From positions 62,001 to 126,000 of the forward strand of contig JAFDVZ010000016.1 of the NCBI GenBank assembly GCA_018268715.1: a stretch of DNA of 64,000 bases, read 5' to 3'. A program made the translations under genes and the position numbers. Of this stretch, positions 4,242 to 38,846 are shown one piece after another (the stretch's first letter is position 1; each line of letters opens with the position of its first letter). The notes under the pieces were generated by a model that saw only the letters and a list, made by a program, of their open reading frames with translations, did no database searches and was not told the origin of the DNA. This DNA comes from Acidobacteriota bacterium (GTDB taxonomy: Bacteria; Acidobacteriota; Terriglobia; Bryobacterales; Bryobacteraceae).

Positions 4242-7200
4242 ATGGTGGCTGTTTTTCATATTAGGAGAGCTGCGGCTGTAGCGGCTCTATTGGCCCTTTT
4301 CGGACTGGCCGCGCTGGCGCAAACCGCCAACGGGCGTCTGGAAGGCTCCGTACAGGACGCAACGGGCGCTGTTATTCCGGGCGCGACGGTGAGCCTGGTC
4401 AACGTCAGAACCGATTCTAAGTCGCAATTCACGACCGACGCCTCGGGTAACTTTCTGTTCGCCGTGCCCGCCGGGCTGTACAGCCTGTCGGTAGAAGCCA
4501 ACGGCTTCCGCAAGGCGGTTGTCAACAACATCGAAATGACGGTGGGCGCGATCATCGCCCAAAACGTCAAGCTGGAGATCGGCGCCACGACGGAAAGCGT
4601 ACAGGTGGAAGCGAGTTCGGTGACGGTGCAGACCACCGAGTCGCAACTGGCGCGGGCGGTGACGATGAAGGAAGTCGATACGCTGCCTCAGTTGAGCCGC
4701 ACGCCGATTACCCTCGCCGGCATTGTCGGCGCGGGCATCCAGATCAATTCCGGCGACCCGAGTTTCTCGCGCGTGAACGGACTCCGCCAGGGCGCAAACA
4801 ACGCGAAGCTGGACGGCATCGACGTGAACGACTCCGTGGTGCCCCGCCTGGGGCTGTCGATGACGGCCAACAATACGGACTCGATCGGCGAACTTCGCAC
4901 GGTGACGGGCGCCGGGAAAGCCGAGTACGGACGTAGCGCCGGCGCGCAGGTGGAATTGATCACCCGCTCGGGCAGCAACGACTGGCACGGCAACCTGTTC
5001 GAGTACCTGCGCAACACCGAACTGAACGCGAACGACTTTTTCAATAACTCGTCGGGAACGGCTCGGCCGAAGTTCATCCAGAACATCTACGGCGGATCGG
5101 TGGGCACTAAGATCCTGCGCGACAAGTGGTTCATTTTCGGGAACTTCCAGGGCCGCCGCACCTCTCAGGACACGATTCGCAACCGCACCGTCTATACGCC
5201 CGAAGCCAAACAGGGCATCTTCCGCTATAAGGATTCGACAGGCGCCATCCAGTCCTTCAACATCGTGAACAACGACCCGTTCAAGAAGGGTATGGACCCG
5301 ACGGTGGCGAAGCTGCTGGCGCGCCTCCCAAGCCCGAACAATACCGACACGGGCGACGGCCTGAACACCCAGGGCTTCCGCTTCAACAGCCCGAGCGGCG
5401 GCATGGAAGACCAGTTCACCATCAAAAGCGACTACAACGTCAGCAACACGCACCGCGTGTTCCTGCGCTGGAGCTGGCAGCGGAACTCCTCGCTCGACGC
5501 CCTGAACTCCGCCGATTCCACCTATCCGGGCGAGCCGAGCGGCACCCAGGGCGGACATCGCTGGGGCTATTCGATCGGCGATGACTGGACCCTCAAGCCC
5601 AATCTCATCAATGAGTTCCGGTTCGGTCACCAGATGGCGACGGTGGCCTTCTTGCGGCCTGGGCGCCCGACCGGGACGGCGGTGTACCTGAACCTGCCCT
5701 ACAATCCGGACTTCAACGGGTTCGGACAGGGGCGTTCGTCGCCGGTGAACGACGTTACAGAAAACCTGACTTGGCTCAAGGGCAAGCACACCTTCAAGAT
5801 GGGCGCGAGCATCCGGCACACGCTCCAGCACGGCTATAACGAATCGGGCATTTACCCGACGGTGACCACATCGGTGGCCAACGGCAGCATCGTGGCTTCG
5901 AACATCGGGCCCTCCGGCCTCGCGAGCAGCGTGCGGTCGACCTTCGAGCAGATGTACAACGACGTTCTGGGCCGCGTGGATCAGGTTACGCAGACCTACT
6001 ACAGCGACCTGGCGAAGTTCCAGAGCGGGCCGCTGGTGCGCGATTTCGTCCTCAACGAGGGCGGTTTCTTCTTCCAGGACGACTTCAAGGTCAGCCGCAA
6101 GCTGACGCTGAACCTGGGCGTTCGCTACGAGTACTTCCTGCGTCCGAATGAAATCAACGGCTTGCAGGGCTACCTCGACAAGGCCCAGTCGATCGCCAAC
6201 GGTGCCGCCGTCACCGACGCCTCCGTTGTGAAGGGCAACAACTGGTTCGGCACGGACTGGAACAACTTCGCGCCGCGCTTCGGTTTCGCCTATGACGTCA
6301 CCGGCGACGGGCGCACGGCCATCCGCGGCAACTGGGGCATGTTCTACGACCGCACGATGGGCTCCGTGGTGAACTCGATCGACGGGGCCACTCCGGGCTT
6401 CTCGCAGTCGGTGCCGGTGCTGACGCCCAGCGGTTCGGAAGTTCGCATTTCGGATGGCAGCCTGGTGATGCCGGCCGTTCCCGGGGCGCCCAGCCTGACT
6501 CCGGCAGCTACGCGCGCCATCAGCCTCTACGTGCCGAATCCGAACCTGCGGAGCGGCTACGTGATGAGCTACAGCCTGAACGTGCAGCGCGAGATTTTCC
6601 GCAACACGGTGCTCGAAGTGGGCTACGTGGCCAATCGCGGCGTGAAGCTGTACATGAACCGCGACATCAACCAGCCGCGCATCTACGGAGACTTCCTGAA
6701 CTCCTTCAAGGAGCTGCAGGCCTATCAGTTGAATTCGTCGGCGACTCCGTCGGCGGGCAACATCCTGGTGAAGATGTTCAACACGCCGGCGGCGGCCATC
6801 AGCGCCCTGGGCGCGACCACCGTGTCGCAGGGTCTGGTGGGTACGGCGGCGAACACCATCGACCGCTCCTCTTCGAACTACAACCGCTATGCGGCGGCCG
6901 GTCTTTCCCAGACGTTCCTGCGGCCGTTCCCGCAGTTTAACCAGGTCCGCCTGGGCGTGAACGACGGGCGTTCCTACTACGATTCGCTGCAGTTGAGCCT
7001 GCGGCGTTCGATGGGCGCGCTGCGCGTATCGGCGTACTACACCTTCGGCAAAGCCGAGGACAACATCGGCGGCTACAGCGCCACTTCGTCGTCGGCCGAG
7101 GGCAACGGCTATGCGCCGCCCATCGACAGTCTGAACCTCCGCCTGATGCGCGGCATCGCGGATTTCGACCGCAAGCATGTGTTCAACTCGCAGACCATTT

Positions 7201-7745
7201 ACGCGCTTCCCTTCGGCCGCAACAAGCGTTGGGGCTCGAATTGGAACCGCGCGGTGGATTCGCTGGCCGGCGGTTGGGAGTTGGGCGGCATCTGGATCTG
7301 GCAGTCCGGTTCTCCGTACACGGTGCTGTCGCAACGCTACACGGCGGGATACAACTCGCAGTACACCTGGATGAATTACACGGGCTCCCGGGGAACCGTC
7401 GGCTCCGTGTCGCGCCAGGGCAACGGCGTGTATTTCCTGCAGGCTTCGGAACTGGCGAAGTTTACGTTCCCGGGCGCCGGCGAGGTCGGCAACCAGGGTC
7501 GCAACCAGTTCTATGGGCCGCGTTTCTTCGACGTCGACATGTCGATGGTGAAGAAGTTCGCGGTCACCGAGAAGTCGGCCTTCGCGTTCCGCGCGGAAGC
7601 TTACAACCTGTTCAACAACACGAACTTCAGCGGTCTGCAGACGAACGTGAACAACGCTTCGACGTTCGGCAAGTTCTCGAGCACGACGGGCCTTCAGGCC
7701 TCGAGCGCCCGCACCATGCAGATGTCGCTGCGGTTCGACTTCTAG
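4242..7745 (+). CDS. Oar-like TonB-dependent outer membrane receptor with carboxypeptidase-regulatory N-terminal domain
   Basis: An outer membrane protein of 1167 residues. After a signal peptide (ends near LAALAQ), residues about 28-115 form a carboxypeptidase-regulatory-like beta-sandwich (GRLEGSVQDATGAVIPGATV), a typical N-terminal extension in Acidobacteriota and Bacteroidota receptors. A plug-like region follows (about 125-240, including the NGLRQGANNAKLDGIDVND stretch), then a long beta-barrel. The C-terminus ends in phenylalanine (SLRFDF), the barrel-assembly signal. Such receptors import large ligands, often oligosaccharides or metal chelates, powered by TonB; the ligand is not evident. 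A purine-rich Shine-Dalgarno (AAGGGGGAAAGG) precedes the ATG. It is monocistronic, with a terminator directly downstream. Confidence 0.93.
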   Translation: MVAVFHIRRAAAVAALLALFGLAALAQTANGRLEGSVQDATGAVIPGATVSLVNVRTDSKSQFTTDASGNFLFAVPAGLYSLSVEANGFRKAVVNNIEMTVGAIIAQNVKLEIGATTESVQVEASSVTVQTTESQLARAVTMKEVDTLPQLSRTPITLAGIVGAGIQINSGDPSFSRVNGLRQGANNAKLDGIDVNDSVVPRLGLSMTANNTDSIGELRTVTGAGKAEYGRSAGAQVELITRSGSNDWHGNLFEYLRNTELNANDFFNNSSGTARPKFIQNIYGGSVGTKILRDKWFIFGNFQGRRTSQDTIRNRTVYTPEAKQGIFRYKDSTGAIQSFNIVNNDPFKKGMDPTVAKLLARLPSPNNTDTGDGLNTQGFRFNSPSGGMEDQFTIKSDYNVSNTHRVFLRWSWQRNSSLDALNSADSTYPGEPSGTQGGHRWGYSIGDDWTLKPNLINEFRFGHQMATVAFLRPGRPTGTAVYLNLPYNPDFNGFGQGRSSPVNDVTENLTWLKGKHTFKMGASIRHTLQHGYNESGIYPTVTTSVANGSIVASNIGPSGLASSVRSTFEQMYNDVLGRVDQVTQTYYSDLAKFQSGPLVRDFVLNEGGFFFQDDFKVSRKLTLNLGVRYEYFLRPNEINGLQGYLDKAQSIANGAAVTDASVVKGNNWFGTDWNNFAPRFGFAYDVTGDGRTAIRGNWGMFYDRTMGSVVNSIDGATPGFSQSVPVLTPSGSEVRISDGSLVMPAVPGAPSLTPAATRAISLYVPNPNLRSGYVMSYSLNVQREIFRNTVLEVGYVANRGVKLYMNRDINQPRIYGDFLNSFKELQAYQLNSSATPSAGNILVKMFNTPAAAISALGATTVSQGLVGTAANTIDRSSSNYNRYAAAGLSQTFLRPFPQFNQVRLGVNDGRSYYDSLQLSLRRSMGALRVSAYYTFGKAEDNIGGYSATSSSAEGNGYAPPIDSLNLRLMRGIADFDRKHVFNSQTIYALPFGRNKRWGSNWNRAVDSLAGGWELGGIWIWQSGSPYTVLSQRYTAGYNSQYTWMNYTGSRGTVGSVSRQGNGVYFLQASELAKFTFPGAGEVGNQGRNQFYGPRFFDVDMSMVKKFAVTEKSAFAFRAEAYNLFNNTNFSGLQTNVNNASTFGKFSSTTGLQASSARTMQMSLRFDF

Positions 7746-35164: not shown

Positions 35165-35425
35165 ATGTGTCTCGCAATCCCAGGCAAGATTTTGGACACC
35201 GAAGACGCCGGTTTCAGCCGGACGGCCCGAGTGCAGTTCGGCGGCGTGGTGCGGACCGTGTTTCTCGACCTTGTGCCCGAAGCGGGGGTGGGCGACTACG
35301 TGCTGGTGCATGTCGGCTGCGCCATCAGCCGGATCGACGAAGAGGAAGCGCTAAAGACCTTCGAGTTGCTGGAGCAGATAGGCGCGCTCGAGGAGGAAGG
35401 ACTCTCCCATGAAGCACCTGGATGA
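35165..35425 (+). CDS. hypC: Hydrogenase assembly chaperone HypC
   Basis: Starts with the diagnostic MCLAIPGK; the second-residue cysteine carries the Fe(CN)2CO unit on the way to the [NiFe] site. The 86-residue product also has the [32 protein letters not shown] beta-barrel. ATG at 35165 has AGGGAGG upstream. It overlaps hypD by 17 bases. First gene of hypCDEAB. Confidence 0.95.
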
Positions 35426-36512
35426 GTACCGGGACGCGCGACTGGTTCGCATAACCGCCGGAGAGATCCGCGGATTGGTGACTCGACCCTGGGTGCTGAT
35501 GGAAGTGTGTGGGGGCCAGACACACACGATCATGCGGTATGGCTTGCCGGATCTGCTGCCTCCAGAGGTGGAGTTTGTCCATGGCCCGGGTTGTCCGGTG
35601 TGTGTGACGGCGCTCGAAACCATGGACCGCGCCATGGCGATGGCCGCGCGGCCGGGAGTGATTTTCGCCTGTTACGGCGATATGATGCGCGTGCCCGGCT
35701 CACGGCTGGACCTGTTTCGAGTGAAAGCGGCGGGAGGCGATATCCGGATCGTCTATTCGCCCATGGACGCGCTGAAACTCGCGCGAGATAATCCGCACCG
35801 CGAGGTGGTGTTCTTCGGGGTGGGATTCGAGACCACGGCGCCGGCCAACGCCATGGCCGCGCACGCGGCGCGACGCGACGGAGTTGGGAATTTCTCGATG
35901 TTGGCTTCCCATGTGCTAGTGCCTCCCGCCGTGCGCGCCATCCTTGGGGCGGAAGGGAATCGCGTACAAGGATTGATCGCGCCGGGCCATGTCTGCACGG
36001 TGATGGGATATCGGGAGTACGAAGAACTCAGCGCCGAGTACGGGATTCCCATCGTGGTGGCCGGATTCGAGCCGCTCGACTTACTGGCGGCCACGCTGAT
36101 GCTGGCGCGGCAGCTCGAGCAAGGGCAGGCGCGCCTGGAAAATCAGTATTCGCGTTCGGTGACTCGCGACGGCAACGCCGCGGCGCGCCGGTTGATGGAC
36201 GAGGTGTTTGAAACGGCGGACCGCAAGTGGCGCGGCATTGGACGGTTGCCGTTGAGTGGGCTGCGGATGCGCGGGAGTTACGACGAACAGAACGCCGAGG
36301 TGCGGTTCGAGACAGCCGTGGAAGCGGTGGAGGAACCGTCAGAGTGCATCAGCGCGATGGTGCTGCGGGGCCGCGCCAAGCCCACCGATTGTCCGGCTTT
36401 CGGCGGGCGCTGCACGCCTCGCAACCCGATGGGCGCGCCTATGGTGTCAACCGAAGGAGCCTGCGCCGCCTATTACCATTTCCGACGAACGGAGTCAGAA
36501 GGCGAGTTATGA
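35409..36512 (+). CDS. hypD: Hydrogenase maturation factor HypD
   Basis: HypD has the motifs [16 protein letters not shown] and [16 protein letters not shown], the C-terminal [4Fe-4S]-binding cysteines in [35 protein letters not shown], and the GFETTAP motif. With HypC and HypE it assembles the cyanide and carbonyl ligands on iron. Length 367 is standard. Its stop overlaps the hypE start (ATGA). Confidence 0.96.
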
Positions 36513-37549
36513 ACCGATTCAGTTGTCCCGCGCCTCTTCCTCAGCGTGAGACGGTGGTGATGGGGCATGGCTCCGGGGGAGTGTTGAGCGCCGAGTTGTT
36601 ACGGGAGGTAATTCTCCCGGCATTTTCGAATCCCTTGCTCGATCGGATGGAGGATCAGGCTATCTTTGAGTCGCCCGGCCGGCGTCTGGCGTTCACTACG
36701 GACTCGTTTGTCGTGAAGCCGCTGTTCTTTCCGGGCGGCGACATCGGGTCGCTGGCGGTGCATGGAACGGTGAACGACCTGGCGATGGGCGGGGCGGAGC
36801 CGCGTTATCTGAGCGTTTCCTTAATTTTGGAGGAGGGGCTGGCGATATCCGATTTGCGCCGGATTGTCCGCTCCATGGGCGCGGCGGCGCGGGCGTGCGG
36901 CGCGGCCATCGTGACGGGAGACACCAAGGTGGTGGAGCGGGGCAGCGGCGACGGCGTCTTCATCAACACGGCGGGCATCGGTGTGGCGCGCGACGGGGCG
37001 CGGATGTCGGCGTCGGCCGCCCGGCCTGGAGACGCCGTGATTGTGAGTGGACCGCTGGGCGATCATGGGGTGGCGATACTGACTCAGCGGGAGGGATTGG
37101 AATTGGAGTCGGCCGTGGAGAGCGACTCGGCGCCGTTGCATACATTGGTCCGCGATATGTTGGACGTCACAACGGAGATCCATTGCCTGCGGGATCCGAC
37201 TCGCGGGGGATTGGCCAGCACGTTGAACGAGATTGCCGGGCAGTCCGGCGTGGGCATTGTGCTGGAGGAGGGCAGCATCCGGGTGCGCGATGGGGTGAGA
37301 GGGGCGTGCGAGTTGTTGGGGCTGGATCCCTTGTACGTCGCCAATGAGGGGAAACTGGCGGCGGTTGTGCCCGCGGAACTGGCGGACCGGGTGGTGGAGG
37401 CGATGCGCGCTCATCCGCTGGGCCGGGAGGCCGCGGTGGTGGGCGCGGTGGTGGACCGGGATCGAGGCCGGGTGTTGATGCGGACCGCTTATGGCACGAC
37501 CCGGGTGGTGGGGATGCTGGCGGGCGATCAACTGCCGAGGATTTGTTGA
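36509..37549 (+). CDS. hypE: Hydrogenase maturation carbamoyl dehydratase HypE
   Basis: PurM-like ATP-dependent enzyme that dehydrates the thiocarboxamide on its own C-terminal cysteine to thiocyanate. The required tail PRIC is present and terminates the protein. ATP-site segments [34 protein letters not shown] and [15 protein letters not shown] are conserved. Start ATG at 36509 overlaps hypD. Confidence 0.96.
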
Positions 37550-37550
37550 G

Positions 37551-37799
37551 ATGCACGAGTTTGGAATCGCGCAGTCGATCCTGGAGGCGGTGCGCACGGA
37601 GGCGGCGAAGCATCCGGGCGCGCGGGCGGTTAAGGTGGGGGTCCGGATTGGACCGATGGCGGGCGTGGATCGCGAGTCGCTGAGTTTCTGCTTTCAGGCG
37701 GCGGCGGAGATGGACGGAGACGCGGGGCTGGCGCTGGAGTTGGAAGAAGGGGCGAGCGACGAATTGGATTTGAAGTACATCGAGTTGGAGGAGCCATGA
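37551..37799 (+). CDS. hypA: HypA-like nickel chaperone lacking the zinc domain
   Basis: Starts with MHEFGIAQSILEAV, where the MHE nickel-binding N-terminus and the helices are typical of HypA, and continues with VRIGPMAGVDRESLSFCFQAAA. The normal protein then has a zinc loop with two CxxC pairs before the last strand (GxEL...IEVE). Here the loop is absent: LALELEEGASDELDLKYIELEEP joins the two parts directly, giving 82 residues instead of about 113-118. The frame is intact and both flanks match, so it looks like an in-frame loss rather than a truncation. Whether it still delivers nickel to HypB is unknown. It overlaps hypB (ATGA). Confidence 0.88.
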   Translation: MHEFGIAQSILEAVRTEAAKHPGARAVKVGVRIGPMAGVDRESLSFCFQAAAEMDGDAGLALELEEGASDELDLKYIELEEP

Positions 37800-38464
37800 C
37801 GCGTGTACCGCTGGAGCAGAAGGTTCTGAGTGAGAACGACAGGGCGGCGGCGGAGTTACGAGAGCAGTTCCGCGCGAGTGGGACGTTGTGTCTGAACATT
37901 ATTGGATCGCCGGGGTGCGGGAAGACGGCGCTGCTTGAAAAGACGCTGGCGGCGATGGATCCCTATGCCCGGGTGGCGGTGCTGACGGGGGACATCCAGA
38001 CCGACGCGGATGCGCAGCGGCTGGGCCGGTATGGATTTCCGGCGCGGCAGATTACGACCGGGGGCGCGTGTCACCTGGATGCGCGGATGATCGTGCGTTC
38101 GTTGAGCGGATGGTTGACTGGCGACGTGGACCTGCTGTTTATCGAAAATGTCGGCAACCTGGTGTGTCCGACGAGTTACGACCTGGGAGAGCACGCCAAG
38201 ATCGTGGTGCTGAGCGCGGCCGAGGGCGAGGAAAAGCCGCTGAAGTACCCGGGCATCTTCTATAAGAGCGAGTTGATGGTGTTGAGCAAGGTGGACCTGC
38301 TGCCGTATGTGCCGTTCGATCGCGAGTTGGCCATTCGCAATGCGCGCGCCACGAATCCGGCGATCGAGGTGGTGGAGGTTTCCGCTACTACCGGGCAGGG
38401 CATAGACGGCTGGCTCCAGTGGATCGCTCGACGGCGGAGTGCGGCGGGGTTGCGCGTTAGCTGA
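37796..38464 (+). CDS. hypB: Hydrogenase nickel incorporation GTPase HypB
   Basis: SIMIBI GTPase: Walker A GSPGCGKT (37-44), switch region LTGDIQTDADAQRL, metal-site segment TTGGACHLDA with the conserved Cys-His pair, and the guanine motif SKVDLLPY. It lacks a His-rich N-terminal tail. With HypA it inserts nickel into the hydrogenase large subunit. The 3' end overlaps the convergent zinc-ribbon gene by eight bases. Confidence 0.95.
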   Translation: MTRVPLEQKVLSENDRAAAELREQFRASGTLCLNIIGSPGCGKTALLEKTLAAMDPYARVAVLTGDIQTDADAQRLGRYGFPARQITTGGACHLDARMIVRSLSGWLTGDVDLLFIENVGNLVCPTSYDLGEHAKIVVLSAAEGEEKPLKYPGIFYKSELMVLSKVDLLPYVPFDRELAIRNARATNPAIEVVEVSATTGQGIDGWLQWIARRRSAAGLRVS

Positions 38465-38846
38465 GTTGGATGGAGGGGCCGGCTAGCGCGGCGGATGGCT
38501 CGCCGGCGGGGCGCTCCTGTACGATGTAGCGCAGGAATACATAGAAAACGACGAGCATAACGAGAAACACGGCGGCTTCCACCAGACGACGACGGGTGGA
38601 GGAGCGCAGATGGCGAAGCTTGGGGAGCGAAGACGATCGCCGGTCCCGGCCGCGATGGTGTTTGTGTTTATGCTCGCGTTTCGGCTCGACGGGCCTGGGT
38701 TCTCCGACCAGATCGGATACGTAGAACCGCTTGCGGCAGGTTCGGCATCGATAGGCCCTTTCGCCGCGGAGACGATGCCAGAATCCGCCCATCCCCTGCC
38801 GGTGAGAGCGCCGGACCTCTTCAGCCCCACAATCCGGACACCGAAT
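38457..38846 (-). CDS. Zinc-ribbon membrane protein; first cysteine pair lies upstream of any standard start
   Basis: The frame encodes a zinc ribbon, CPDCGAEEVRRSHRQG...RCRTCRKRFYV, a basic His-rich linker and one C-terminal membrane helix (AAVFLVMLVVFYVFLRYIV). Homologous ribbons start shortly before the first CPxC. Here the first ATG in frame (38792) is after that pair, and between the upstream in-frame stop (38885-38883) and CPDC there is no ATG, GTG or TTG. A non-standard start (ATT at 38846 or ATC at 38873) is possible; the feature is drawn from the ATT. If the ATG at 38792 is used, only half of the ribbon remains. Function unknown. Confidence 0.6.
   Translation of the reverse strand: MRCPDCGAEEVRRSHRQGMGGFWHRLRGERAYRCRTCRKRFYVSDLVGEPRPVEPKREHKHKHHRGRDRRSSSLPKLRHLRSSTRRRLVEAAVFLVMLVVFYVFLRYIVQERPAGEPSAALAGPSIQLS

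Follow-up and report, generated by a model that had tools for sequence, protein, structure and literature searches.

A HypA cut in-frame to its nickel-binding domain and the repeated loss of the zinc-binding domain among its relatives

The hyp operon and its short HypA

The window, by which we mean the whole stretch of 64,000 nucleotides analysed here, carries a hyp operon in the order hypC-D-E-A-B, in which hypA is unusually short:

35165 to 35425, forward strand: hypC (Pfam and NCBIfam matches)
35409 to 36512, forward strand: hypD (Pfam and NCBIfam matches)
36512 to 37549, forward strand: hypE (Pfam and NCBIfam matches; start approximate)
37551 to 37799, forward strand: hypA, 82 aa, nickel-binding domain only, zinc-binding domain (ZBD) absent
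37796 to 38464, forward strand: hypB, a GTPase of 222 aa, overlapping hypA by 4 nt

The end of hypE at 37549 lies 1 nt upstream of hypA, and the hypA stop and hypB start overlap in the ATGA at 37796-37799. An earlier note on this DNA, made from the letters alone, had described the flanking hyp genes as intact and properly overlapping, a description upheld by this overlap and by the Pfam and NCBIfam matches, in which hypC, hypD, hypE and hypB are all intact. Convergent with hypB, on the reverse strand at 38457-38792, is a frame whose small product has a single CxxC and a stretch that looks hydrophobic; by sequence it is unrelated to the HypA zinc domain.

Translation of 37551-37799 gives a protein that opens with MHEFGIA, and hence with the M1-H2-E3 nickel motif, and closes with DELDLKYIELEEP, its last strand aligning with the C-terminal strand of full-length relatives. 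There is no CxxC anywhere in its 82 residues, both CxxC pairs of the ZBD having gone. The Pfam HypA profile PF01155 recognises it at 48.1 bits (cut-off 28.9; E 1.3e-12), but the match covers no more than positions 1-66 of the 112 in the model. Against the curated equivalog TIGR00100 of NCBIfam it reaches 34.7 bits, below the cut-off of 88.1; this shortfall is expected with one third of the model absent, and it means that annotation pipelines may miss short forms. Translation, profile match and alignment thus agree with the earlier note, which had seen an MHE N-terminus and final strand kept, the CxxC segment missing and 82 residues remaining. With the MHE motif, nickel-domain sequence and fold, hyp neighbours and common descent with full-length HypA all present, and only the CxxC-Xn-CxxC zinc domain and the equivalog score wanting, the protein has every feature of HypA but the zinc domain, and is filed here as a ZBD-less HypA-derived variant rather than as canonical HypA.

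The host genome (7.63 Mb, 99.8% complete) encodes HypF and three [NiFe]-hydrogenase large subunits, the latter on contigs other than the window's and each with the C-terminal nickel ligands DPCxxCxxH intact. This 99.8%-complete genome holds no second HypA; if its hydrogenases are matured, the 82-aa protein is therefore the only HypA found for the task. The hypCDEAB genes, hypF and the three large subunits all lie on separate contigs of the genome (C7, C4, C23, C38, C2), which leaves the maturation genes without close linkage to the hydrogenases. A second species of the genus (G028) lacks both HypA and [NiFe] large subunits.

Were the zinc domain supplied in trans, HypA would be split rather than reduced, and weak zinc-only matches to PF01155 in the host genome and some relatives could be taken in that sense. 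The match on host contig C2, tried as the missing half, is an FmdB-like ribbon (YEYRCxxCG), as are those in four relatives (G012, G017, G051 and G115); such ribbons lie away from the hyp operon and occur also beside full HypAs. The remaining weak matches of the host genome fall inside unrelated frames, the C2 match being the only one examined there. Given that this match and the four in relatives are all FmdB-like ribbons, HypA does not look split, and we regard a zinc domain in trans as quite improbable.

Recurrence and repeated loss of the zinc-binding domain

HypA is matched in 111 of 200 genomes of the window's family, and at about 31 loci the PF01155 match ends near position 66 or earlier, without CxxC pairs; among these, L067 (at a contig end) and L071 (scrambled after residue 38) were left uncounted, and L192 is short in appearance only, its contig ending there. 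Recurrence in so many genomes places the short form far beyond chance. A scan of genome contigs gave 4 loci, with full-length HypA in all. The short forms fall into two kinds: type A, the window's own, found mostly in hypC-D-E-A-B operons and adjoining a HypB of the window's lineage, and type B, which is taken up below. The window's HypB lineage has 45 members, 20 with short and 25 with full HypA (the 31 'full' rows of the tree described next include 6 outgroup rows). An assembly or sequencing deletion in the host genome is accordingly so improbable as to be negligible: the deletion is in-frame, and at least 20 genomes of the lineage are short, three related genera in the same state included.

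In a tree of HypB, HypD and HypE, which is independent of HypA, short forms are scattered among full ones. Short HypA requires 6 state changes on the best tree and 6-7 in the bootstraps, well-supported branches forcing at least 5; no bootstrap tree has a single origin. Forcing the short forms into one group lowers the log-likelihood by 176 units (p-AU 1.7e-52), and one origin is rejected. The window's short HypA groups with those of G146, G045 and G020 in one clade of four genera (support 100/99), so that its loss of the ZBD, common to all four, is old. A tree of HypA itself, built on nickel-domain columns, places all 45 lineage members, short and full alike, on one side of a branch (support 97), which argues that the short HypAs are not foreign replacements. 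We read the state changes as losses because homologous zinc domains are unlikely to have been regained anew at one site, although some could be regains of the ZBD by recombination. The linkers that stand in place of the ZBD vary in length among short HypAs, as expected of independent deletions. Both forms can be found within a genus: in g20, G019 is full and G086 short, with a net in-frame loss of 33 codons, and g41 is likewise mixed (G041 and G186 short; G152 and G178 full). The recurrence that the earlier note had proposed looking for is thus present, in 20 of the 45 lineage members and convergently; its refuting condition, full-length close relatives together with reads showing an assembly deletion, does not hold, for full-length relatives do exist within the HypB lineage but the window's nearest relatives are short.

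Elsewhere in the phylum, short HypAs occur in other families in G506, beside an intact HypB, and in G484, with type B in G273 and G574. In two further phyla, verified short forms number 1 in 89 HypA-bearing genomes (G705, in the phylum of G596; L040, 'Opitutia bacterium') and 1 in 72 (G1049, in the phylum of G595; L039, 'Bdellovibrio sp.'), both counts being lower bounds, with partial matches opened in part. On these counts the short HypA is rare elsewhere and common in the window's family. Several of the outlying loci have features of their own. In G1049 (L202) the ZBD-less HypA sits in a complete hypF-C-D-E-A-B operon; in G705 (L195/L204), which has no HypB match, its neighbour is a group-3-like large subunit. 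At L198 of G484 (6283-7237) the HypB frame next to the ZBD-less HypA contains an in-frame TGA; G484 also has a second hypA-hypB pair, in which HypA is full. Two divergent HypAs (L072 in G194, L073 in G171) have an aberrant zinc domain, where CECGC or CVCGH stands instead of the first CxxC; both adjoin a large subunit, and neither genome has a HypB match.

Selection, fold and partners of the short HypA

Between the closer short hypA copies dN/dS is 0.12-0.33, and between the window's copy and those at L047 and L060 it is 0.17-0.22, with synonymous sites near saturation; the nickel-binding part of the short HypA is under purifying selection. In an alignment of the 20 short HypAs of the window's HypB lineage, H2 and E3 are invariant (20/20) and D40 is present in 19/20, these three residues being the nickel-site ligands of H. 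pylori HypA (PMC7055735). It might be held that the gene is decaying, HypA being unneeded and the zinc domain the first part to go: high nickel can bypass HypA and HypB under laboratory conditions (PMC12134894), and in G484, a genome of another family, the HypB frame next to the short HypA has an in-frame stop. The low dN/dS runs counter to this, however, as do the sharing of the loss by four genera with frame, MHE and last strand intact and the soundness of hypB and the remaining operon, and we consider decay improbable. The earlier note had wavered between a zinc-free minimal nickel chaperone and a degenerating one; purifying selection, the conservation of H2, E3 and D40 and the spread of the form over four genera disfavour the second, and the first appears to have been the right guess, with the chaperone function itself predicted from sequence.

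AlphaFold2, given the single 82-aa sequence without an alignment, produced a best model of five with pLDDT 83.9, the one model of the five above 80, in which helix, strand, helix, strand and strand follow in order; the top Foldseek matches of this model are HypA structures. The fold search succeeded where a PDB sequence search with the short protein had returned nothing useful. As the ZBD is inserted ahead of the final nickel-domain strand, its excision leaves a closed domain, and as the full-length HypAs of the window's lineage have no conserved His in their zinc domain, the deletion removes no conserved nickel ligand.

The window's HypB keeps hydrophobic residues V4 and L6 in the HypA-docking tail, aligned with Y4 and L6 of A. 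fulgidus, and its nickel site C92/H93/C124 (residue roles in docking and nickel binding from PMC3287977). A compensating HypB residue was sought and rejected: residue 153 is G in 19/20 members with short HypA and 5/25 with full, and residue 89 is A in 16/20 and 5/25, but while several columns differ by HypA form there are only 4 independent contrasts, none significant. A tie to one class of hydrogenase was likewise rejected, the excess of group-1-type large subunits alongside short HypA (14/20, compared with 4/17 for full) vanishing after control for descent. With descent controlled, neither a HypB change nor a hydrogenase class accounts for which lineages dropped the ZBD.

Taken as a whole, these observations make it probable that the window protein is a genuine HypA, cut in-frame to its nickel domain, which would still bind nickel and serve HypB and the hydrogenases, the ZBD being dispensable and repeatedly lost. 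In-frame excision of the inserted ZBD would have left the nickel-binding domain alone; nickel would be bound by the N-terminal Met-His-Glu together with Asp40, exchanged with the co-encoded HypB GTPase upon docking, and passed to the host's [NiFe]-hydrogenase large subunits for their maturation. The most economical model makes of the zinc domain an accessory module that may tune stability or partner choice. That the short HypA merely positions HypB or the large subunit, with HypB inserting nickel directly, strikes us as unlikely: a pure adaptor would not need nickel ligands, yet all 20 aligned short forms keep H2 and E3, and type-B relatives have lost HypB yet kept MHE.

HypA without HypB, and comparison with known systems

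Type-B operons run large subunit-hypA-hypF-C-D-E, with hypB absent (L050, L053, L055, L057, L058, L062 and L064; also L061, L065, L066, L200 and L201), and the large subunits retain their C-terminal nickel-binding cysteines. In 8 of the 10 type-B genomes of the window's family, HypB was found neither by a protein search nor above the TIGR00073 cut-off of 121, one of the eight having a HypB fragment of 28 bits; in the other two, G043 and G035, HypB adjoins a second, full HypA. Outside the family, HypB matches reach only about 32 bits in G273 and G574, and G705 has none. Several type-B genomes are fragmented, so that a missing HypB is weak evidence in any one of them, the agreement of eight being stronger. 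Of the leads in this analysis, the most unusual is that zinc domain and HypB are missing together, and it concerns the relatives, not the window. This double absence, seen in type B and in the Verrucomicrobiota case alike, implies that a zinc-less HypA may insert nickel without HypB. We therefore advance, tentatively and with a little less than even confidence, a broader reading in which the nickel-binding domain is a complete minimal [NiFe]-hydrogenase chaperone, the ZBD is an accessory lost many times, and type B and the Verrucomicrobiota case insert nickel without the HypB GTPase. Such a simpler nickel-insertion route, as the HypB-less type B suggests, could help heterologous production of hydrogenases.

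According to one review, every HypA carries both a nickel site and a zinc site, and the zinc cysteines are important for the activity of hydrogenase and urease (PMC7055735); a review of 2025 counts the zinc domain among the parts of HypA (PMC12134894). Among the open-access papers searched, none mentions a HypA without zinc, subscription papers lying outside the search. Naturally ZBD-less HypAs contradict the universal zinc site of the former review (PMC7055735), and HypA seems able to do its job without the zinc domain. Counting against our preferred reading of the window protein as a working nickel-domain HypA, zinc-cysteine mutants of H. pylori have 9-60% of wild-type hydrogenase activity (PMC7055735), from which it would follow that the zinc domain helps there and is not absolutely required. 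Two further points weigh on the same side: the fold model was built from a lone sequence, with one model in five above 80, and HypB has no compensating change that holds up once descent is controlled. Candidate roles of the zinc site are stability, pH or nickel sensing and partner choice, and natural losses bear on the choice among them: being repeated and under selection, and with full and short pairs in the same genus, they make the role of the zinc domain directly testable.

Set beside known systems, the window HypA shares with the HypAs of H. pylori (6G81) and T. kodakarensis (3A43, 5AUN, 5YXY) the MHE motif, Asp40, the nickel-domain fold and adjacency to or overlap with hypB; it differs from them in having no CxxC...CxxC ZBD, in its length (82 aa against about 113-120) and in falling below the TIGR00100 cut-off. 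Full-length HypAs of its own HypB lineage (for example L141 in G019, L154 in G092 and L164 in G152) have the same operon type and HypB lineage, and retain, unlike the window HypA, both CxxC pairs. Type-B HypAs resemble that of the window in that the ZBD is gone and MHE and the last strand are kept, but form a separate clade, have no hypB in the operon and come from genomes that mostly lack HypB.
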